Shown: positions 4,849-35,037 of the stretch, piece after piece
Position numbering within the stretch: position 1 is the stretch's first letter
Layout of the letters: each line of letters begins with the position of its first letter
Notes under the pieces: generated by a model
The model's database searches: none
The model's input: the letters and a program-made list of their open reading frames with translations, nothing else
Told to the model about the DNA's origin: nothing
Origin: Bacteroidales bacterium
Lineage (GTDB): Bacteria > Bacteroidota > Bacteroidia > Bacteroidales > P3
NCBI GenBank assembly: GCA_016283175.1
Contig: JAEEMK010000023.1
Span: forward strand, 1 to 47,552
Direction of reading: 5' to 3'
Length of the DNA stretch: 47,552 bases
Made by a program: the position numbers and the translations under genes

Positions 4849-4919
4849 ACGTTGTTTTCGGTACACCTTCCCTGGCATATGTACAGTATTTGTACAGTAT
4901 ATGTACATATGCCAGGGAA
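4849..4919. repeat. Inverted-repeat element of 11-bp units (copy 1, short form)
   Basis: Arms 4868-4885 and 4902-4919 are a perfect 18-bp inverted repeat starting with TTCCCTGGCATATGTACA. The interior continues in 11-bp units of the type ATATGTACAGT / ATTTGTACAGT. The non-palindromic left flank 4849-4867 matches 24396-24414 at most positions, so this is a true second copy of the element at 24396-24525 with fewer internal units. Confidence 0.85.
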
Positions 4920-4938
4920 AACAGGGGGGAGGGGCTTT
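4906..4938. repeat. 33-bp direct repeat, first copy
   Basis: Identical to 4992-5024, 86 bases downstream. It begins with the right end of the inverted-repeat element (CATATGCCAGGGAA) and runs into a G-rich tail (six G, A, four G, CTTT). Confidence 0.85.
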
Positions 4939-4991
4939 GAACCTGGCTGCCACGCACAAGGCTTCTCCACGCGCTCCACAGGAGCTTGTGC

Positions 4992-5024
4992 CATATGCCA
5001 GGGAAAACAGGGGGGAGGGGCTTT
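4992..5024. repeat. 33-bp direct repeat, second copy
   Basis: Exact copy of 4906-4938. The 53 bases between the copies contain an imperfect stem (GCACAAG near 4956 with CTTGTGC near 4990). Two identical copies of the element end suggest a nested or tandem insertion. Confidence 0.85.
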
Positions 5025-8459: not shown

Positions 8460-9977
8460 ATGAATATGTTTAAATCCAGAGTTTTGATCGTCGTCCTGCT
8501 GGTGTTGACAGCAATACTTGCAACGTCGTGTATCAAAGAAGATCGATACCTGACCGACAGTTCGGTGCGGTTGGCTTTCTCGGAAGACACTGTGACATTC
8601 GACACTGTCTTTGCAACAATGGCTACGGTGACACGCTCGGTGAAGGTATATAATCGCTATGACGAACCACTGCTTATCAACAGCGTTGCACTTCAAATGG
8701 GCGGAGCTTCGCGATTCCGCATCAACGTAGACGGCGACACGTCGCGCATTGCCCGCGATGTGGAAATAGCAGCCAACGACAGCATTTTCATATTCATACA
8801 GGCTAACATCAATCCAAACGACCAGACAACACCATATTTGGTGGAAGATGCCATAGTGTTCAGCTTCAACAACAGGCAGCAGTCGCTTCCAGTGACTGCT
8901 TATGGTCGCAATGCGGTGTATCACAATCCGACATACACCCACCAGATTTACCAACTGTACATCAACCACCTGGGACAGATTGACACAATGTGGATTCCTT
9001 TCTCTATTATAGACTGTGCCAACTGGGATCACAGCCGTCCGCACGTCATTATGGGATATGCCGTTATCAATAGTAACGAAACGTTGCACCTCACCACAGG
9101 CGATGAGCTTTATTTTGCCAACGATGCCTGCCTGTGGGTCTACGACAGTGCCACGCTCGATGTGCGGGGCAGCTTGTCAAAACCGGTTGTTTTCAGTTCT
9201 GTACGCCACGACGGCTACTATGACAGTCTGCCAGGCCAGTGGCAGGGCATTTGGCTGTCGACTGGAAGCAAGGACAATCACATAGAATGGGCCTGCATTG
9301 AGAATGCCACCATAGGCATACAAGTCGACACCAACGTCAACAGCAACCCGACTCTTGATATCAGCAACAGCATTATACAGAATCATTCGCGTATGGGTAT
9401 CCTAGGACAGGGTGCACGGATAGAGGGCGATAACCTGCTTGTAAGCAGCTGCGGAGAACAGCTCGTTAGCCTTCTTTATGGTGGTCGTTACCTGTTTAGC
9501 AACAGTACTTTTGCCAACTATTGGCGATACAGTGGCCGCAAAACGCAGTCGGTGTGGCTTAACAATTACTACAAGTACAGCGCGACTGAAGTCTTTCCGC
9601 GTCCACTGCAACAGGCTGAGTTCCGCAACTGCATCATTTATGGCAACTACAATGGAAGCGACAACAGCGGAGAGCTGCTGTTTGACTGGATGGAAAACTG
9701 CGAAATGAACTGTACATTCTACAACTGCCTGTTGCGCACCTCTTTGGTTGACAGCAATGGATGTGCCACATACAGTCCTGCACCAACAATTGCTGGAGGC
9801 AACGATATTGTTGGTAAGGATCCCAAATTCAATGATGCCTACAAGCACGACTACGAACTGCAGGAGAACTCACCGGCCATAGGCGCCGGCAGCAGTGCCT
9901 GGCTTAAAAGCAGCACCGACTTGAAAGGCAATCCGCGCAGCAATCCTCCGACAATAGGAGCATTCGAAAAACAGTAG
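8460..9977 (+). CDS. Lipoprotein with right-handed beta-helix / choice-of-anchor-Q-like domain
   Basis: Envelope lipoprotein of 505 aa. The signal peptide ends in lipobox LATSC, with the acylated Cys near residue 24. Residues ~35-150 look like an immunoglobulin-like domain with short beta strands (FDTVFATMATVTRSVKVYN). From ~190 onward the sequence has the rhythm of a parallel beta helix (Asn-rich turns, 'NHIEWACIENATIGIQV', 'SNSIIQNHSRMGILGQG'). The ending, NSPAIGAGSS...GAFEKQ, is the common closing motif of beta-helix surface proteins in this phylum. The gene is 12 bases after the M64 peptidase, so the two may work together on surface glycoprotein or polysaccharide. That pairing is inference. 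An alternative ATG lies at 8466. Confidence 0.85.
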   Translation: MNMFKSRVLIVVLLVLTAILATSCIKEDRYLTDSSVRLAFSEDTVTFDTVFATMATVTRSVKVYNRYDEPLLINSVALQMGGASRFRINVDGDTSRIARDVEIAANDSIFIFIQANINPNDQTTPYLVEDAIVFSFNNRQQSLPVTAYGRNAVYHNPTYTHQIYQLYINHLGQIDTMWIPFSIIDCANWDHSRPHVIMGYAVINSNETLHLTTGDELYFANDACLWVYDSATLDVRGSLSKPVVFSSVRHDGYYDSLPGQWQGIWLSTGSKDNHIEWACIENATIGIQVDTNVNSNPTLDISNSIIQNHSRMGILGQGARIEGDNLLVSSCGEQLVSLLYGGRYLFSNSTFANYWRYSGRKTQSVWLNNYYKYSATEVFPRPLQQAEFRNCIIYGNYNGSDNSGELLFDWMENCEMNCTFYNCLLRTSLVDSNGCATYSPAPTIAGGNDIVGKDPKFNDAYKHDYELQENSPAIGAGSSAWLKSSTDLKGNPRSNPPTIGAFEKQ

Positions 9978-23577: not shown

Positions 23578-24174
23578 TCAAATGCCGTGAGCCAAAGTGA
23601 GTTTTATGATTTCCTCTACCGTGGCGCCTGGGTTGGCCGAAATCACCGTCGACACTACCTTTTCAGAAGCTGCTTTTGGGAATCCCAGCATAACCAGTGC
23701 AGACAAAGCCTCGTCGGCATTGTTGTTGCCCTGGTGCGACGAAGAAGTGCCGCCGGCAAGCGTCTGAATGGCAAACGGATCTACTTTGTCGCGAAGTTCC
23801 AGCAGTATGCGCTGTGCCGTCTTGGCACCGATGCCCTTCACTTTCTGCACACGCTTGACATCCTGGTCAAGGATGGCGCGCGTCAGTTCCTCGACAGTAA
23901 GCGACGACAGCATTATGCGTGCCGTCGCGGCACCCACGCCGTTGACACCAATCAGCAGGCGGAACATCTCGCGCTCGCCTTCAGTGTAGAATCCAAACAG
24001 CAGATGGGCATCCTCGCGAACCACCTCGTGAACCAGCAGCTTGACCTCGTCCAAATCCTTGATTTGGGAATATGTGTTTATCGTGGTTTCAAGCAGATAG
24101 CCCACACCGCCGCAGTCGATGACAGCGTATGCCGGCGTGGCCTCGTCCAGTTTTCCTCGAATATAGTTGTACAT
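23578..24174 (-). CDS. ruvA: Holliday junction branch-migration protein RuvA
   Basis: Tetrameric DNA-binding subunit of the RuvAB motor, 198 aa. Domain I (OB fold) runs from MYNYIRGKL to about residue 62. Domain II has two helix-hairpin-helix motifs, LLIGVNGVGAATARIML and KVKGIGAKTAQRIL. Domain III is the small C-terminal RuvB-binding helix bundle (ADEALSALVMLGFPKAASEKVV). It is upstream of sprA by 45 bases and probably drives it in one transcript. No ruvB or ruvC is in the window. The 654 bases upstream contain a 111-bp palindrome and no clear promoter consensus. Confidence 0.97.
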   Translation of the reverse strand: MYNYIRGKLDEATPAYAVIDCGGVGYLLETTINTYSQIKDLDEVKLLVHEVVREDAHLLFGFYTEGEREMFRLLIGVNGVGAATARIMLSSLTVEELTRAILDQDVKRVQKVKGIGAKTAQRILLELRDKVDPFAIQTLAGGTSSSHQGNNNADEALSALVMLGFPKAASEKVVSTVISANPGATVEEIIKLTLAHGI

Positions 24175-24395
24175 AGGATTATTATGGGTTACGAAAAATC
24201 TTCCAATGCCTCATAACGCAAAAAAAAGCTGCGTATTGTGCCAGTGCAATAATTTAATAATTCAGGGGCTCAAGCACCATATGCGACGCGACGCTGTTCC
24301 TTTTTTTGAATTGGGAATAGCTTTATGCCTGTATGACTGTGCGTTACGACATTCATTATTTCGTGGTGTTTCTCTGCTTTCATTAGGATGTAACA

Positions 24396-24525
24396 ACGAT
24401 GTTCTCAGTAGACATTCCCTGGCATATGTACAGTATTTGTACAGTATATGTACAGTATTTGTACGCTTCTAAAGCGTACATATACTGTACATATACTGTA
24501 CAAATACTGTACATATGCCAGGGAA
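24396..24525. repeat. Inverted-repeat element of 11-bp units (copy 2, long form): 54-bp stem, 3-nt loop
   Basis: Arms 24415-24468 and 24472-24525 pair over 54 bp with a single mismatch and a loop of three bases (CTA). Each arm starts TTCCCTGGC and continues with 11-bp units: ATATGTACAGT, ATTTGTACAGT, ATATGTACAGT, then ATTTGTACG on one side and the equivalent of ATATGTACG on the other. The left flank 24396-24414 matches 4849-4867. The unit length is not a multiple of three, so coding is unlikely. It sits after the minus-strand cargo block and would make a very stable RNA hairpin if transcribed. Confidence 0.92.
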
Positions 24526-24689
24526 CGTATATGCTATGCACACTACATATACCGTAAAAAGCATTGTGAAAAGTATAATACTGTAATGTTTTGATTGTTA
24601 GGATGATTGCAGATTGGCACTGTGGCTTATGGTTAAATTGCTTTCCTCGGTGGCTGTAGCACAAAAAGCAGTCGACAGCCGTTCCTGCT

Positions 24690-24828: not shown

Positions 24829-27120
24829 TTATTGTGAGAATATGTCAGACATCTTCGTTAGTCTTATGGTATGTGTTTTGCCTGATGCGGTGGTGAGGGT
24901 GAGGAGGTAGGTGGCCTGGGGGCGCGAGGTGAGGTCGAGGGTGTAGCGTCCGGAGCCTTCGGCTGTGAGGCGCACCTGCTCGCGGCGGCCTGTGAGGTCG
25001 GTGAGATAGCAATTTTGAATTTCGAAATCTGAATTTTGAATTTGGAGAGTCACTATGCCGGTAGTTGGGTTTGGATAGCAGACAAGCTCTTGTTTTTCTA
25101 CATCTTCTATCCCTATGGGCGGTGGCGGCGTTGTTCCGATGTAGAGGGTCTTGGTGAGCGAGGCTGGGTTCCAGTAACTGGTGCCAGGCTGGATGGCAGT
25201 GACTTGGCAGATGCCCTGCTGACGCAACGCCACCAGTATCACGCCGTCTTCGCTGATATCGACTCTCGCCATCGACGGGTCGGAGGTGATATAGCTCACA
25301 GGCAGGCCGCTGGTGGCCGTGGCGTTGATCGGCAGGTCAGGATTGGTTTCGGGATGAGGGATGCGCAGGATGTTGCCGCCAGGCCAGACAATCGACTGGT
25401 TGGCGTGGAGGTTGGGGTGGACGTATGGCTTGCGCATCGAGGTGTCGACCAACTTGGCTATGTATTGTCCGTTGCCACAGAATATGTCGCCGAAGGTGGT
25501 GGGGCTGCTGAAGCTGTTGCCGGTCACGTATACTGCGGTGTCCGTCAGCAGCAGGTGTCCGGGCTGGCTGTCGGGATCGGTGCAGTGGAAGGGGTATATG
25601 GCCACCTCGTTGCCGTCGTAGTCCCACTGCGCCAGAGCCAGTCCTTTTTCGTATGCTCCACTGGTGTTGAGTACGGTGTAGGAAAAGTAAACACTGCCCA
25701 AGTAGCCCACCTGTGCAAAGACTCGGTTGTCGCGCGCAGCGATGGACAAGCCACCCGCCGAGCTACCCCAGGCGGAGTGCATCCGCCCGTAGGAGAGGTA
25801 GCGCCCGTCATCAATCCCCACGCGGAGCCAGAAGGCATCGTTGCGATTGTCAAGGGTGTCGCCACGGTAGATGATCTGGTGCGGATTGCTGTTGCCGGTG
25901 AAGCTATCGGTTCCCGCAACGCCAAGTACGAAGAGCGACCCCGTGGCGGTGTCGGTGCAGGTGGCGCTGAGCATCACCGCCGGGTAGTTTCTGTCGCCAG
26001 GAACGTAGTCAAATTGCATCAGCAAGTTGGCGTTCAGGCCGGTGTCGAGGCGGAGCATACAGTCGGTGCCCCAGGCCAGCGAGAGTGTGTCCACCTGCAG
26101 CACAAGCCCGTTCGATCGTGCAATGGGTATGCTGTCGTGTTCTACTTTTATATTGAAGGTGAAGTACAACTGGTCGTCGTCGTGGATATCAAACGACCTT
26201 ATGTCCAGCCAGTTGGTGTTGAGGGGGTCGACCCACGGCGCATCGCCGGCAATGTAGGAAGCGTCGAGCAGACTGTCGAAATGGGGCGAGAACTTCAGCA
26301 CCTGCTGGTTCCACCAGCCCGTGGGGTATGGCGGGATATGGGTAAGGAAGTGCGTGCCGTCAACCATAAAGCGGTACCCGCTCAATCCGCCATCGTGGAT
26401 GTGCAGAGTCTCCGTCCCGGAGAAGGCCCAATCCTGAGTGAGGCGGACAACATAGATGTTGCCGCGGCTGTCCACATCGAAATGCCCATTGGTCAGCCAT
26501 TCGCCATACACCTTTTGCCCGTGCCTGACGGGCTGTCCCACGCTGTCGAGATAGGTGACCTGCAGGAAGTGGTGTTCCAGCAGCGTGCCGTCCAGTCCCA
26601 GGGTGATGAAGGCCGTGGCCCTCCAATTGTACACACTATCCGTTGGCAGCAGCAACTCGCTGGTGGTTAGCAGCGTGTCGAGGTAGTAGAGCTTTGTCCA
26701 CACTATATTGTCGTAGACGGTGGTGTATGGCAGCGGAATGTCCACCATCATCATCAGAGCCGTGTCGCCAAGCATACGCAGGTCGTGTACTTTCACGCCG
26801 CTGTCGCCGCCACGCTCCCAAGGGTTGATGATGCGGTGCCACAGGTATTGCCCGTCGGGCGACATCTTGACTAGCAGCAGGCTGCGGTTATGGTTGGTGA
26901 TGGTCTCGAAGGGGTCGATGGTGTCCAACCAGCCGCCCCTGGCCACCTGCATAAGGTGGTACGTGTTGCCCTCCACGTCGGCCACCAGGCCGCAGGGAAA
27001 ATTGGAGTAATCGTCGCCATAGCCGTAGAAACTCTTGGCCCATTCGAAGCGCTGGGCGTGGGCGGCGAGGGAAAGCGCGACAAATGTAAACAATAGGCTA
27101 ATTCTCTTGATTGCTTTCAT
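24829..27120 (-). CDS. Secreted protein with T9SS type A sorting domain
   Basis: The 763-aa precursor has a signal peptide (MKAIKRISLLFTFVALSLAAHAQ). Its long beta-rich body looks like a beta-propeller-like or SBBP-type repeat region (phrases such as GNTYHLMQVARGG, GNIYVVRLTQD and DRNYPAVMLSA). A proline-rich linker (TTPPPPIGIEDVEKQ) leads to a ~75-residue C-terminal T9SS type A domain, with YPNPTTGIVTLQ followed by YLTDLTGRR and closing strands. It should be exported through SprA and surface-anchored or released. An in-frame ATG at 27144 overlaps the upstream stop as ATGA and adds 8 residues. I prefer 27120 because the signal peptide starts there. Residues about 693-703 are encoded by an AT-rich simple repeat. 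The specific function is unknown. Confidence 0.87.
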   Translation of the reverse strand: MKAIKRISLLFTFVALSLAAHAQRFEWAKSFYGYGDDYSNFPCGLVADVEGNTYHLMQVARGGWLDTIDPFETITNHNRSLLLVKMSPDGQYLWHRIINPWERGGDSGVKVHDLRMLGDTALMMMVDIPLPYTTVYDNIVWTKLYYLDTLLTTSELLLPTDSVYNWRATAFITLGLDGTLLEHHFLQVTYLDSVGQPVRHGQKVYGEWLTNGHFDVDSRGNIYVVRLTQDWAFSGTETLHIHDGGLSGYRFMVDGTHFLTHIPPYPTGWWNQQVLKFSPHFDSLLDASYIAGDAPWVDPLNTNWLDIRSFDIHDDDQLYFTFNIKVEHDSIPIARSNGLVLQVDTLSLAWGTDCMLRLDTGLNANLLMQFDYVPGDRNYPAVMLSATCTDTATGSLFVLGVAGTDSFTGNSNPHQIIYRGDTLDNRNDAFWLRVGIDDGRYLSYGRMHSAWGSSAGGLSIAARDNRVFAQVGYLGSVYFSYTVLNTSGAYEKGLALAQWDYDGNEVAIYPFHCTDPDSQPGHLLLTDTAVYVTGNSFSSPTTFGDIFCGNGQYIAKLVDTSMRKPYVHPNLHANQSIVWPGGNILRIPHPETNPDLPINATATSGLPVSYITSDPSMARVDISEDGVILVALRQQGICQVTAIQPGTSYWNPASLTKTLYIGTTPPPPIGIEDVEKQELVCYPNPTTGIVTLQIQNSDFEIQNCYLTDLTGRREQVRLTAEGSGRYTLDLTSRPQATYLLTLTTASGKTHTIRLTKMSDIFSQ
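25011..25043. repeat. AATTTTGAATTT simple repeat inside a coding region
   Basis: Two copies of AATTTTGAATTT (25011-25022 and 25032-25043) lie in the sorting-domain part of the cargo gene. They read as IQNSDFEIQN in the protein. The same tract type occupies the rpoB-rpoC gap, so it appears to be a short repeat that has entered or arisen in a coding region while keeping the frame. Confidence 0.7.
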
Positions 27121-27140
27121 ATTGTATGTGGTTTTAGTTA

Positions 27141-28907
27141 TCATCTTATCAATGTCACCGTGCCGATGCCGGCGCGGACAATGCCGTTGGGTAGTTCGAC
27201 TTCGTATTTGTACACGTATGCTGCCTGGGGTTGGGGGATGCCTTTGGCGGTGCCGTCCCAGGCGGCTTCGGGGTCGGTGGTGCTGAAAATCAAGTTGCCC
27301 CAGCGGTTGTAGATATACAATTCATACTTGACGGGTTCAAAACTGAGGTAGCCGCGGAAACTGTTGTTTGTCTCCTGCCCGGGCGTGAAGGCATTGGGGA
27401 ACCAGATATTGTACATTGGAGGCTCCTCTATTGTTGGAATTGTATCCTCTGGTATTATAGGAGGTGTGGCATTAATACTCACTGTCAGCGTCACCATAGA
27501 GTCGCACCCATACTGGTTGGTGAAATGAAAGATGTACTCGCCACTGTCAGCGATGGCGGTACCGCCGTATCGAAGGGTGTCGCCGGCATCGATGCTGATA
27601 TGCTGTGTTGTTGAGTCTGTCGGATTGACAAACAGCTTTAAGAAATAGTGCCGCTGGGCAAAGTCGTCCACGCTGTCGCGTTGGAATGTGAAAGTGCCTG
27701 GCATCGTTGGCTGGGCATAAAAGCCATAGCCATTATACAGCTCGCCGAGACAGATGGTGTCTCTTATGGTTACTGTGTCTTTTCGTATTATTGTTTGCAG
27801 ATGCAGCGTCACCGTCGAGTCACATCCGTTGGCGGCAACGATGGTAAATGAGTATGAACCGTTTTCTGTCAGTGTTGAGTCGAAAAAGAGAAGACTGTCG
27901 CCGATGAAAATGGTGTCGTAGAGCACGGTGTCGCTTGTGGGCAGGATGGTAAGAGTCAGCAGATGGACGTCGACGGTGCTGTCGTTCACCAACTCTGTGT
28001 AGTCGAAGGTGTATGTACCGGGAGTGCTCATCTGGCTGACTGTCGGGGTGAAACTGTAGCCGCTGTATGCCGTTCCTTGACAGATGGTGTCGGTGTGAAA
28101 CAGAGTGTCGCGTGTGGTGATATGGGCGGGATAGATACGGACGTTGTCGATAAAGGTGGAGTTGCCGCCTGGAAATCCGTAAGTAAGGGTATCGCATCTT
28201 TTGGTACGGAAACCGATACGGTAAGGTGGCGAGACACCGTCGAACATTCCGAGCACGTCAACGTCGAACATCTGCCACTCGTAGCCGTTGAGCGTGTAGG
28301 TAAGAGTCAAGAATGGGATAAAATCGCGCCCGCAGGTAGGATTACAGGGCCAACTGGTGTGCATTTCCGACCACCAGAATGTAGTTGTGGTGTCAGGCAC
28401 CGAGTCGGTCAAAATGCCAACCTCTATTTCGAGCGGTATCAGTCCTGCACCTGGACTTGGACTGTTTGTGTCTTGTCCGACAACGAAATCGAAGGTGACT
28501 CTTGCCGGCAATTCGTAGAACCAGGGCGACGCCAACAGCGAACCACCACACTTGTAGTCGGAGGTCGTATCCCAAAAGCCCACTGCCGGATGATAGTCAT
28601 TCCAAGCACCGGCATAGTCCATACGCACCATACCGTTGTTGATATAGCTGTAATTATTGTAAGGTACCAACAAATGGCCAGGCCTACAGAACATTGTTCC
28701 TGCCCATCCGCGAGTACAACCTTCCCAACCGCCAAAGAAATGATAAGCAGGATAATAATAATTGGTTGCATCTATTTGCCTGATCGAGTCTTCAATATAG
28801 TCCTCAAAATCCTCATAGAACGGCAGGGTGACGACGACCTGGCTGCGCAGATTGGCACAGCACAGCAGCATTGGCAACAACCAGATATGTTTTCCCCTGC
28901 AAAACAT
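27141..28907 (-). CDS. Secreted protein with T9SS type B (gliding-motility-type) C-terminal domain
   Basis: The 588-aa precursor has a signal-peptide-like start (MFCRGKHIWLLPMLLCCANLRSQ). The first ~230 residues form a jelly-roll-like domain (LPFYEDFEDY..., RVTFDFVVGQD). Three or more repeats with TICLGELYNGYGF-like phrases follow, similar to adhesin repeats of the phylum. The C-terminus is the type B sorting domain (TIGR04131 type): WFPNAFTPGQETNN, YELYIYNRWGNLIF, WDGTAKG, AYVYKYEVELPNG. ATG 28907 is chosen because it follows the msrA stop by one base and starts a signal peptide; ATG 28943 would overlap msrA by 35 bases. Probably surface-exposed; ligand unknown. Confidence 0.87.
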   Translation of the reverse strand: MFCRGKHIWLLPMLLCCANLRSQVVVTLPFYEDFEDYIEDSIRQIDATNYYYPAYHFFGGWEGCTRGWAGTMFCRPGHLLVPYNNYSYINNGMVRMDYAGAWNDYHPAVGFWDTTSDYKCGGSLLASPWFYELPARVTFDFVVGQDTNSPSPGAGLIPLEIEVGILTDSVPDTTTTFWWSEMHTSWPCNPTCGRDFIPFLTLTYTLNGYEWQMFDVDVLGMFDGVSPPYRIGFRTKRCDTLTYGFPGGNSTFIDNVRIYPAHITTRDTLFHTDTICQGTAYSGYSFTPTVSQMSTPGTYTFDYTELVNDSTVDVHLLTLTILPTSDTVLYDTIFIGDSLLFFDSTLTENGSYSFTIVAANGCDSTVTLHLQTIIRKDTVTIRDTICLGELYNGYGFYAQPTMPGTFTFQRDSVDDFAQRHYFLKLFVNPTDSTTQHISIDAGDTLRYGGTAIADSGEYIFHFTNQYGCDSMVTLTVSINATPPIIPEDTIPTIEEPPMYNIWFPNAFTPGQETNNSFRGYLSFEPVKYELYIYNRWGNLIFSTTDPEAAWDGTAKGIPQPQAAYVYKYEVELPNGIVRAGIGTVTLIR

Positions 28908-31376: not shown

Positions 31377-33716
31377 TTAAAAAATCATAAATTGCACTTT
31401 TTGACTGCTCAACTTATTGTTTTCCAATTGACGGATAATGAAGGAGTAAATGCCTGATTTGAGGTCGAGAGCAATTTGACCGCCGCTGACAGTGCGAATG
31501 TCTTTGAAAACGGCTCTGCCACCTGTGTCGTATATATCAATCGAAAGTGCCTCGCCTGGATTGTCGGTCTCTATGGTCACTGTGCCGCTTGTTGGATTGG
31601 GATATATACGTACCGAACCCGTTTCAGTCTCGTTGGGAGCGACAATGTCAACGTATGATGTGTCTTTCACAGCAAGGGTGTATTGTCCAAGTTTCAACGC
31701 GGTCATTACAAAATATCCCTGCGACGAGTTGCCTGTGTGCAGGCTCGTGGCTGGTTTCCACTCGCTGGCGGCGTCTTCGCGGTATAGTAGGCACAACTGT
31801 TCAAACTCTGCTGAACTATTGAAAAGATTATTGTCAAGCGAACGGTCGTTTCCATTACGAGAAAAATAAAAGCGGCCACCTATCTTGAAGCCTTCGGGGA
31901 TAATACCCGTTACCTGCCAATAGCGGTCGGCCATTTTTGCATACCGCGGATTTTGCAATGTGTCGGGTTTTACCCAGTGATGGGTAACGTAAAGCCAGGC
32001 GCTGTCGCCGTCATTCACCTTGCTCACCTCTGCACGGAACAGCGCTGAAGAGAGATTGTAAGACCCTTTTGTTTTTATGAAAAGTTCTTGACTAACTGAT
32101 GCTTTCGAAAGGTCGTCGTTGTAGTCAACGATGGCAAATTCAGGCTTGAATGGTAACTGGAAAACAGCAGTGGTTTCTTTGCCGTCGAATGTTATCAGGC
32201 GGTCGGCGCGATTAAGACGGTTAGCCGAAAAGAATGTCACCCACACACGGTTGCCATTGGCCAGACTGTCGGTGCCGTAAGTTTTCTGCTGTATATGGAT
32301 TGTTGTTGTTGTGTTGTTGTTGTGGATAGAGTCAATTATGAAATCTGTGAATCCTGGTTTGAATACGTGGAAATCGAAGAAGTCAGTAAGATCGGTGCCA
32401 GTGTATAGCGAAAGACTGTCGCGCAGCTGGTAGCTGTCAATGTTTTGGAATGCGCAACGGCTGAAAAGTGTTTGCATAGCAGCATAGAAGAGCGAATCGC
32501 CCACATATCCGCGCAGGGAGTGCCATACCGTGGCACCTTTGTTGTATACGGTCATACCGTAAGTATATTCGGGCGTTTGCCCATATACTGGTTTGAAACC
32601 GTCATCTCTTATATGTGCTGTTATGAGCACATTTTTAAGGTTTTCCTTGGCATAGTCTTTGTAGCGAAGTGGATTGCTGTCGGAATAGATAGCTTCGACA
32701 GCCACCTCCTCGCAAAAAGATGCACCGCCCTCGTTGATCCACATATCCAGACTTGTAGCACAGGTGACGAGATTGCCAAACCACGAGTGGGCAAACTCGT
32801 GGCTCATAGTTGCCAGGCAGGCTTCGTCCTGCGATGACATACACTGTGTTGTAAAGGCAACGTTTCCGACGTGTTCCATCGAACCTTTTGTCGTCGACAC
32901 ATATCCCACGCGGTCCCACATATAGGGTCCAAAACGGCGTTCAAACATCGGTATCACCCGGCTCATATTGTCGTAGGCGGCCCACACCATAGCGCTGTCG
33001 TGACCTGTAAAGCCTAGCAGGGCAGGGTAGATGCCGTATTCGCTGACATATTCTCGTTCAATGATGTGGAAAGGCGCCACTGCCACACCAACAAGGTATG
33101 TTGGCGTCTGGCGATTCAGAGTCCAGAAGTATGTAGAACTGCCATCGGTATGCTCGGTAATGCTATCCAAAAGGCCTGTGCATATTGCTCTCCAGTTGGG
33201 TTTTGCTGTGATTTCAAAATGGTAGGTAGCCTTGTCGTAGAAGTTGTCGCGGCACGGGAACCAGGCCTTGCCAGCATTGTGTGGATATTCGTATAATGCA
33301 ATGCCGAGATTGTAGTATATGTTGTTGTCGAAATAGAAACCACCCCAGCCTTGCGGCATAATATGTTGCCCCTTGCGGTAAAAAACGGTTATCGTCACTG
33401 TATCGTCGATGTTGCCGACATAAGGTACTTTCACAAGGCGCATTGCTGCATCATAGCAGAATGGTGAAGGTGTACCGTCAAACCATACAGAGTCGATATC
33501 CGATGCGCAGAGTTCCAGTGCGACGGTGTCCATATGGCTAAGTATGTGCATAGTAACGACTGCCGAGCCTTCGATGCGGTTAGCGGTATGGTTGCCTATG
33601 TCAAGCCGTAGGTCGTAGTGCAGAGCATCGACGCTGTCGGTCATATTATCTTGTGCGCAGATAGTACTGCACAGTGAAAAGAACAGTATTAAAACTTTAA
33701 GTGATTTGATATTCAT
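31377..33716 (-). CDS. Secreted M1 family metallopeptidase with T9SS type A sorting domain
   Basis: Zinc aminopeptidase-like exoenzyme, 779-aa precursor. The signal peptide is MNIKSLKVLILFFSLCSTICAQ. The gluzincin site is complete: HEFAH at 306-310 and the third ligand E329 in NEGGASF, giving HExxH-X18-E. The substrate-binding GAMEN motif is present as GSMEH (278-282). A beta-rich region follows the catalytic domain. The last ~85 residues are a type A sorting domain (RIYPNPTSGTVTIE, IDIYDTGGRAVFK, GIYSFII). ATG 33716 is used because upstream in-frame ATGs (33803 and others) precede no signal peptide. A TATTTTTG box on the minus strand (33752-33759) may be its -7 element. It is expected outside the cell, handled by SprA. 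Confidence 0.94.
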   Translation of the reverse strand: MNIKSLKVLILFFSLCSTICAQDNMTDSVDALHYDLRLDIGNHTANRIEGSAVVTMHILSHMDTVALELCASDIDSVWFDGTPSPFCYDAAMRLVKVPYVGNIDDTVTITVFYRKGQHIMPQGWGGFYFDNNIYYNLGIALYEYPHNAGKAWFPCRDNFYDKATYHFEITAKPNWRAICTGLLDSITEHTDGSSTYFWTLNRQTPTYLVGVAVAPFHIIEREYVSEYGIYPALLGFTGHDSAMVWAAYDNMSRVIPMFERRFGPYMWDRVGYVSTTKGSMEHVGNVAFTTQCMSSQDEACLATMSHEFAHSWFGNLVTCATSLDMWINEGGASFCEEVAVEAIYSDSNPLRYKDYAKENLKNVLITAHIRDDGFKPVYGQTPEYTYGMTVYNKGATVWHSLRGYVGDSLFYAAMQTLFSRCAFQNIDSYQLRDSLSLYTGTDLTDFFDFHVFKPGFTDFIIDSIHNNNTTTTIHIQQKTYGTDSLANGNRVWVTFFSANRLNRADRLITFDGKETTAVFQLPFKPEFAIVDYNDDLSKASVSQELFIKTKGSYNLSSALFRAEVSKVNDGDSAWLYVTHHWVKPDTLQNPRYAKMADRYWQVTGIIPEGFKIGGRFYFSRNGNDRSLDNNLFNSSAEFEQLCLLYREDAASEWKPATSLHTGNSSQGYFVMTALKLGQYTLAVKDTSYVDIVAPNETETGSVRIYPNPTSGTVTIETDNPGEALSIDIYDTGGRAVFKDIRTVSGGQIALDLKSGIYSFIIRQLENNKLSSQKVQFMIF

Positions 33717-34119
33717 AAGTTTGCAGCAAGATTTTTTTTGGTAATACAATGCAAAAATACACATAATTTCCGAATTGCAGCGTGGCAAACCATATTTTGG
33801 CACTCAGCCGCAATGGGGAGTGCCGGCGCCGGCTGCGGTTTGGCCTCAACCGCTATGCCCGTTCAACTATACTTTGACCATACTTCAACGATACTTCGAC
33901 CATATATCAACTATACTATATCGTTGAAGTATCGTTGATATATAGTCGAAGTATCGTTGAACGGACTATGAAGATACCTACTATCCTCTCCCGAAACGGT
34001 TTTTTCTGTTTTGTTTTGTTTGATGGCACCGCACCTCGGTGTTGAATTTACAGGTGGGAGAAATCAAAATGATACATAATTTTTACGTTTCGTTGGCGTT
34101 ATATAATAAAATATTCAAT
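33717..34119. other. 403-bp divergent intergenic region with an 11-bp-unit inverted repeat
   Basis: Between the M1 peptidase (minus) and the second lipoprotein (plus). It contains a possible -7 box for the peptidase (33752-33759), a GC hairpin GGCACTC/GAGTGCC (33799-33824), the palindrome GCCGGCGCCGGC (33822-33833) and the repeat element at 33859-33964. The lipoprotein promoter should lie in 33965-34119; only a near-match TACGTTTC at 34084-34091 is visible. Confidence 0.65.
33859..33964. repeat. Inverted-repeat element of 11-bp units (different sequence family)
   Basis: After CCG come five 11-bp units on the left (33862-33916: TTCAACTATAC, TTTGACCATAC, TTCAACGATAC, TTCGACCATAT, ATCAACTATAC). 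They abut four units of reverse orientation (33917-33960: TATATCGTTGA, AGTATCGTTGA, TATATAGTCGA, AGTATCGTTGA), closed by ACGG. The two sides pair imperfectly over about 47 bp. The sequence is unrelated to the TATGTACAGT elements, but the construction (11-bp units, inverted halves, intergenic) is the same. Confidence 0.85.
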
Positions 34120-35037
34120 ATGAAGCGTTTTTTCACAACGGTTGTTTTGATAGCAGTCCTATGTGTTATGTCCGGCTGCAAAAAGGATGGAGTATATAGA
34201 CCCAGTCAGAAGCTGTCGGGTATCTCGGAATACTTTGAACGGACTCACCAGAGGTATGATAACGAACTCAAGGTATGGAAAGTCATTCATAAGGACAGCA
34301 CGAAACGCCATCAGACAGAGAAATGGATCTGGAATGGCAATCGTCTGGATCGCATTGACTTCTATTCGGGTAACAATGTGTCTAACAGCCTTGCGTTTAC
34401 ATACGACGGCAAGCGCCTTGTTCGTGCTTATATTAGTGAAACAAAGTCGGGCGTCGAATATCACTACAACGGTAAAAAACTCGAGACAATGACCGTTAAA
34501 AACAAAAACGGAGAGACTGTTGCAACTTATGAATTTAAATATGACGGAAAGAAGATCAGCCAGATAACCATTGATGGCAATGCTGTTCAAACCAAATCAG
34601 ACATTGACATTGATGCTTTGGCGCTTTTGCCTGTGTTGGGTGATGCCCAATCGGTGCACGACCTTGCAGAATGCCATAAGAAAGATCAAGCAAAAAAAGG
34701 TGAGACAGTGTACCGTATAGTTTGGAAAGGCGACAATATCAAAAGCATTAGCAACGCTTCTGACGGTAATACAGTAACATATCGATACGATGATAAATAT
34801 AACCCTTTGCAGGGGTTGATGCCAACACTTATTGGCGTAGGCGAAAACGTAGACAGTTATGCTTTTGCGAACAAAAACAATGTTATTTCAGTCGATTACG
34901 GTAGTTCAAAACTCTCATATAGCTACACATATAGTGAAAAATTGCCGGTGTCACGCAGTCGCAACGAAATAGACCATTACACGCAGGGCTACCGATATGT
35001 GGATGTCTATATTACGTACTTCGAGTATATTGAATAG
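34120..35037 (+). CDS. Lipoprotein with repeated YDGKKL-type motifs, paralogue of 2607-3569
   Basis: 305-aa precursor with a lipoprotein signal (MKRFFTTVVLIAVLCVMSGC; lipobox MSGC). The mature part repeats WNGNRLDRI, YDGKRLVRA, YNGKKLETM, YDGKKISQI and WKGDNIKSI, and ends YFEYIE. Signal, motif order, the opening KxDGVYRPSQKLSGI versus KEGKYNPKEKISQV, and the C-terminus all match the protein at 2607-3569, so they are paralogues. ATG 34120 is chosen because the signal peptide starts there; the upstream in-frame ATG at 34039 adds no signal. It is a single-gene unit and diverges from the M1 peptidase. Function unknown. Confidence 0.85.
   Translation: MKRFFTTVVLIAVLCVMSGCKKDGVYRPSQKLSGISEYFERTHQRYDNELKVWKVIHKDSTKRHQTEKWIWNGNRLDRIDFYSGNNVSNSLAFTYDGKRLVRAYISETKSGVEYHYNGKKLETMTVKNKNGETVATYEFKYDGKKISQITIDGNAVQTKSDIDIDALALLPVLGDAQSVHDLAECHKKDQAKKGETVYRIVWKGDNIKSISNASDGNTVTYRYDDKYNPLQGLMPTLIGVGENVDSYAFANKNNVISVDYGSSKLSYSYTYSEKLPVSRSRNEIDHYTQGYRYVDVYITYFEYIE

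Follow-up and report, generated by a model that had tools for sequence, protein, structure and literature searches.

The window analysed here, a stretch of 47,552 nucleotides that makes up the complete contig C35 of the Bacteroidales genome studied (G000; 2.25 Mb in 111 contigs), contains a near-perfect palindrome between ruvA, whose start codon lies about 240 bp away, and a gene whose product carries a T9SS type A sorting domain (table 1). An earlier note made from the letters of the window had described its long arms, the short loop and the single mismatch correctly, and the same applies to the internal organization of the arms as a ladder: TGTACA recurs in steps of 11 bp, with roughly one helical turn between neighbouring GTAC cores, which brings equivalent sites to almost the same side of the double helix. 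The predicted folding energy of a 181-nt stretch around the palindrome is -62.9 kcal/mol, compared with a mean of -16.4 kcal/mol for dinucleotide-shuffled sequences (z = -15.2), and none of 200 such shuffles folds as well.

Table 1. Features of the window related to the ladder palindromes, with their coordinates.
Feature	Position	Strand	Description and basis
Short family copy	4868..4919	.	Lacks the central GCTT..AAGC
Repeated half-end CATATGCCAGGGA	4992..5004	+	Behind the second repeat type
ruvA	23578..24174	-	NCBIfam TIGR00084, 203 bits (cut-off 85)
Left half-flank, family I	24329..24414	.	Outer limit approximate; alignment of 18 I+II copies and half clusters
Near-perfect palindrome	24415..24525	.	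111 bp; 54-bp arms, one mismatch, 3-nt loop
Core common to copies	24421..24519	.	99 bp; GGCATATGTAC, three 11-bp steps, GCTT, 3-nt loop, AAGC, mirror
Right half-flank, family II, diverged	24526..24602	.	Outer limit approximate; same alignment and half clusters
Gene for 771-aa protein with T9SS type A sorting domain	24829..27144	-	Opposite flank from ruvA; encoded on the same strand
Second ladder palindrome	33884..33961	.	Different 11-bp unit near TCAACGATACT; between divergent genes

The second ladder palindrome of the window, unrelated in sequence, is located 9.4 kb from the first one and is flanked by genes at 31377-33803 (minus strand) and 34039-35037 (plus strand); no further copies of it were found in the fetched parts of G000. 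The ruvA loci of 29 relatives bear no palindrome, and the neighbour of ruvA is different there. The product of the gene directly upstream of ruvA in genome G058 is 82% identical to the protein encoded at positions 8460-9974 of the window, and the ruvA loci of six more relatives resemble the G058 arrangement when judged by eye. Since the respective gene of the window (8460-9977) is found 14 kb from ruvA and in the other orientation than in G058, the surroundings of ruvA must have been rearranged, with the palindrome near one breakpoint.

As the earlier note had anticipated, further intergenic copies exist both in G000 and in related genomes. We count about 93 copies with an intact centre in G000 (94 matches to a regular expression, one of them rejected), a few of which, at contig ends, may be one place counted twice (e.g. 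those on contigs C10 and C43). The copies were drawn from listings of 100 of 185 and 100 of 281 matches plus all 97 matches to another pattern, and the list may miss a few; the 360 relaxed matches, at four per full copy, would correspond to some 90 of these. The arms of 90 copies pair at a median of 47.5 out of 49 positions (minimum 36), and the mean column identity is 95% among the 76 of 89 cores that were aligned, 13 irregular, shortened or contig-end cores having been dropped. The number of steps is equal in most copies, contrary to the variable number of units that had been expected, and TTCCCTGGC does not hold as a defining end, the six bases beside GGC being variable (TTCCCT, AGCATA, TTCCAA, TTCCTC and others). 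Outside the core the copies are mosaic: each side belongs to one of several families of flank, and many different pairings occur. The flank of about 19 bp said to be in common with positions 4849-4867 is the inner end of flank family I, a cluster of 43 halves, the match itself being only loose. A set of 18 hand-picked copies with flanks I and II, including the window copy, align over about 300 bp as one long imperfect palindrome (figures taken from part of the alignment output). Several I+II copies have the ACT step displaced by one rung in one arm relative to the other. Both sides of the pair are altered at 13 of 48 pairs, compared with 7.7 after shuffling (60 distinct rows), a covariation that copying alone can also bring about in palindrome arms. 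The objection that the palindrome is an assembly artefact fails for the family, because copies with different flanks are found at about 93 places in G000 and again in other genomes that were assembled separately. At one contig start (L039, positions 1-160) the left flank mirrors the right one, which is probably a snap-back assembly artefact affecting a single copy.

The copies have a characteristic position with respect to genes. According to gene orientations from a simple hexamer gene caller, 44 of the 82 G000 copies with called neighbours are located between divergent genes, 35 between genes of the same direction and three between convergent genes, 11 more copies being situated at contig ends. 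The corresponding numbers for control intergenic regions that are 100 bp or longer and lack a copy are 17, 35 and 10 (Fisher's test, P = 0.002 for divergent and P = 0.016 for convergent placement); these controls are imperfect, having been taken from the window and from 48 loci that had been picked for the copies in them. A start codon is faced by 134 of the 174 half-elements with a called neighbour, at a median distance of 248 bp. The sequence TAnnTTTG, which we take to be the promoter motif of the phylum, is present in the stretch from ladder to start codon in 68 of 131 regions (shuffling predicts 20.5) and not once on the coding strand inside the ladders. Where the motif is seen, the ladder thus lies upstream of it; it is absent from about half of the 131 upstream regions.

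The copies also keep apart from each other. The 99 G000 loci considered, short copies included, are distributed over 57 contigs and define 42 neighbour distances with a minimum of 7,577 bp and a median of 14,315 bp, partial copies standing about 100 bp from a full one on contigs C72 and C101 having been merged beforehand. While 34 of these distances are below 20 kb, none is below 7 kb, as opposed to 16.3 expected if each contig's loci are placed uniformly along it, and no zero was obtained in 20,000 simulations. A comparable result comes from genome G069, with 62 copies, a minimum of 8,329 bp and none of 44 distances below 7 kb (9.6 expected, P = 5e-5; in G069 and G053, contigs without a length on record were taken to end 5 kb beyond the last copy). 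The G069 gaps above 8 kb are broadly distributed around a median of 30 kb, so the pattern is one of exclusion rather than periodicity.

The genome G053 harbours both GTAC ladders and ladders with a different 11-bp unit (GTTCTTATATC), the latter at no fewer than 54 loci among 100 of 157 matches listed. Neighbouring GTTCTTATATC ladders of this list are separated by at least 10,431 bp, with none of 29 spacings below 7 kb (7.3 expected, P = 1e-4), and the 25 GTAC ladders on their own likewise show no spacing below 7 kb, a result that is not significant (1.6 expected, P = 0.15). Between the two families, 27 same-contig pairs have a minimum distance of 7,878 bp, and none is below 7 kb (3.6 expected, P = 0.016; second family as represented among the matches listed). 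When 27 pattern-matched loci of both families were tested together against real intergenic sites on the fetched contigs, none of 18 spacings fell below 7 kb (4.8 expected, P = 0.0016); an irregular ladder outside this pattern, near 30.5 kb on contig C2, is about 12 kb from its neighbour. G053 ladders of 7, 8, 9, 10 and 14 bp do occur less than 7 kb from other ladders, often near gene ends, and were kept out of the spacing analysis as something separate, a decision taken only once they had been seen. A terminator-like appearance is shown by certain G053 palindromes (L248, L265, L267 and L279), some of them near gene ends, in which units of 7 or 8 bp surround a CTGACGCGGCAGCC-like centre.

Within the genus, a relaxed GTAC pattern is found in 10 of 120 genomes including G000 (up to 360 matches) and the exact core in five of 99, again with G000, which implies that the GTAC family is not essential to the genus. 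The carriers in named collections are Bacteroidales MAGs, three out of four from sheep or goat gut. Outside the genus, the relaxed pattern matched two of 391 genomes sampled from the order, each time as a one-strand head-to-tail run; at L303 (genome G278, of another family) such a run consists of an 11-bp TGTACGATAGA-like unit and gives 11 overlapping matches. When 394 kb from eight genomes of the genus were scanned for palindromes, 11-bp ladders of other sequences came to light in G069, G053 and G045, and ladders of the GTAC kind in G069, G053 and G042. In G023, two ladders stand about 11 kb apart, both between divergent genes; their 11-bp units are again different, and one of the ladders is imperfect. 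A palindrome of 22-bp units was encountered in G163, a member of another genus. The genomic context differs between the two G053 families, six of 10 GTAC ladders and one of 13 other ladders being in divergent regions. The step dinucleotide is AG in 515 of 520 G000 steps and GG or GC in 58 of 67 from G053; from the few loci seen elsewhere, it is AG in G082, AG and GC in G025, GG and GC in G042, AA in G069, G045 and G074, and GA and GT in G036 and G119. Some species therefore share steps, and the homogenized step differs between groups.

Certain sites are shared between species. Intergenic regions of G053 upstream of orthologues of genes facing a G000 copy carry a GTAC ladder in six of 31 cases (one being an overlapping gene call), compared with five of 585 other regions (P = 4e-6). 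The ratios are 5/23 and 5/250 for regions of at least 100 bp (P = 5e-4) and 4/13 and 2/48 for divergent regions of that length (P = 0.016). These are recounts as distinct regions, a per-gene count (9/44 versus 8/617) including regions twice. At locus L081 both flanks align between G000 and G053 up to the ladder. The other G053 ladder is found in three of 31 orthologous regions and in 10 of 585 others (P = 0.02, rising to 0.09 for regions of at least 100 bp). In G069 and in G023, a single orthologue apiece bears a ladder built from the unit of its own genome. Most orthologous regions lack any ladder, and some are much shorter, with no exact junction that could be aligned: G000 regions of 764 and 501 bp correspond to ladderless ones of 150 and 123-134 bp, respectively, and one ladderless G053 region still measures 424 bp compared with 501 bp in G000. 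Partial sharing along with many ladderless sites points to gain and loss of sites, and the recent origin proposed in the earlier note is too simple, because some sites are held in common with a sister species. At the sites that are kept, the letters follow their own genome, as in concerted evolution; hot-spot insertion may be an alternative source of shared sites.

Our best reading, to which we would assign a probability of roughly 40%, is that the ladders represent a class of DNA-level chromosomal elements, recognized by their structure, copy number, location, spacing, species-group-specific steps and partly shared sites. Such an element would consist of a central 11-bp palindromic ladder, with about one step per helical turn, within a longer imperfect palindrome, and would be kept mostly upstream of genes, never closer than roughly 7.5-8 kb to the next one. 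The anatomy speaks for action at the DNA level, and the design recurs with unrelated units in other genomes. Palindromes as long as this one are able to form cruciforms when the DNA is negatively supercoiled, a state that divergent transcription promotes; the ladders might extrude where divergent transcription supplies negative supercoils or, alternatively, might load one dimeric protein per turn. In either case they could mark or buffer chromosome domains about 10-15 kb long. Homogenization within a species would plausibly come about when a broken palindrome is repaired with a different copy as template, a process that would account for both the uniform ladders and the mosaic flanks. An SbcD homologue scores above the cut-off in G000 and 15 of 20 genomes searched; among these 20, the carriers G042 and G119 gave no match. 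Somewhat less likely is the more specific view of helically phased ladders as landmarks, none within about 8 kb of another, whose architecture, place and spacing would be selected and whose step would be rewritten genome-wide in different species groups. Equally tentative is its corollary that unrelated sequences fill the same spaced structural role. Counting against a structural reading are the presence of the GTAC family in no more than 10 of 120 genomes of the genus, the broad G069 gaps, the non-significant spacing of the G053 GTAC ladders alone, a cross-family test of just 27 pairs, the post hoc separation of the 11-bp class from shorter and longer ladders, the differing contexts of the G053 families, the many ladderless orthologous sites and the lack of the promoter motif in about half of the regions. 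In PMC6907758, BIMEs are discussed as candidate barriers between supercoiling domains, and the domains reported start at about 10 kb and range over 10-400 kb. The minimum spacing of the ladders is near the lower end of these sizes, and an element that can be seen and counted in this way would make the domain question directly testable.

Transposition with target immunity is the main and strongest rival. The ladders would then be MITE-like non-autonomous elements moved in trans by a transposase with a preference for upstream regions and immunity acting within about 7.5 kb, a scenario that we regard as well conceivable, if short of probable. The likeness to intergenic MITE-like repeats noticed in the earlier note, whose interpretation is partly supported, holds up. 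Speaking for transposition are the patchy presence in the genus with high copy numbers in several genomes, the mosaic flanks and those G000 intergenic regions that exceed their ladderless orthologues by hundreds of base pairs. Immunity, which is described for Mu, would explain exclusion within a family. It also operates in Tn7 and Tn3. However, unrelated ladder families avoid each other as well, the steps at shared sites follow their own genome, and the ladderless region in G053 comes close to its G000 orthologue in length (424 and 501 bp). The ends vary. As for terminal inverted repeats of the MITE kind, the flanks comprise inverted halves that belong to several families and are homologous in part, without sharp outer limits. 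A clear target duplication is not seen either: for 4-mers, no boundary suits more than 12 of 85 copies (mean 0.58), and this best fit may be due to a self-palindromic TATA in the flanks, the test being weakened by the mosaic ends. RAYT (Y1_Tnp) was the sole transposase family searched, and no member was found adjoining ladder copies in G000; the two Y1_Tnp loci of this genome, 3.3 kb each, contain isolated 7-8-mers of the end motifs and no ladder. If the elements are transposons with immunity, the spacing of insertions can be read straight from genomes. Either way, some ninety near-perfect 100-bp palindromes in a genome with an SbcD homologue bear on the question of palindrome survival.

It is unlikely that the spacing reflects purging, i.e. 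recombination or breakage of nearby palindromes with loss of the intervening DNA, the element itself being without a role. The palindromes are direct and inverted repeats of each other, an SbcD homologue is present in G000, and palindrome-induced rearrangement in E. coli is reported in PMC3315005. Yet the limit is sharp, near 7.6 and 8.3 kb in two species, unlike a gradual effect of distance; unrelated families keep apart too, and partial copies persist next to full ones on C72 and C101.

A still more improbable explanation is that the ladder is a multi-site operator, a hairpin RNA or a terminator controlling neighbouring genes, as the upstream position and a TGTACA palindrome every 11 bp might suggest: the promoter motif, where found, lies beyond the ladder, the convergent placement of just three of 82 copies rules out a terminator, Rfam returned only tRNAs from the window and six loci, and a regulon is not apparent from the downstream genes, as 119 of the 134 (15 were omitted by hand without a fixed rule) contain 176 Pfam families, none in more than two. 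A search for viral, phage or plasmid cargo likewise gave no match.

In the literature searched, with most subscription journals outside it, we found no description of the ladder element, its spacing or its step. Several known repeats share particular traits with it. ERIC and NEMIS are intergenic palindromic MITEs of about 100 bp with many copies, in which respect they resemble the ladders, but to our knowledge they have neither an internal 11-bp ladder nor mutual exclusion. The binding sites matS and those of Noc and SlmA are short, single, conserved in sequence and spread along the chromosome; many palindromic sites on one chromosome are thus a common trait, whereas the ladder steps differ between species groups. 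REP and BIME sequences are dispersed intergenic palindromes as well, but of 20-40 bp units as opposed to a ladder with 54-bp arms, and with a convergent rather than upstream location, the spacing exclusion being a feature of the ladder. REPs associated with RAYTs are defined in PMC3733652 as 20-40 bp palindromes tagged with GTAG or CGTC, and the ladder of 99-111 bp bears no such tag at its ends. BrickBuilt of Porphyromonas gingivalis comes from the same order, is intergenic and contains short tandem units. These are 23-nt direct repeats with TIRs, in 19 copies in strain ATCC 33277, and the main text has no word starting with 'palindrom' (PMC4596501); the ladder is made of 11-bp units in inverted arms.

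Two other kinds of repeat accompany copies of the family. A repeat some 85 bp long, which contains GCCACGCACAAGGCTTCTCCACGCGCTCCACAGGAGCTTGTG and is linked to the family end CATATGCC, is present at positions 4920-5004 of the window and at L044, L058, L070 and L095, in places standing in tandem. Another long palindromic repeat, GTGCGACACACCCC..CTCTCCGAGAGGGG, adjoins several ladder copies and is seen at L060, L076 and L094 and at positions 429-549 of L184 in G069.
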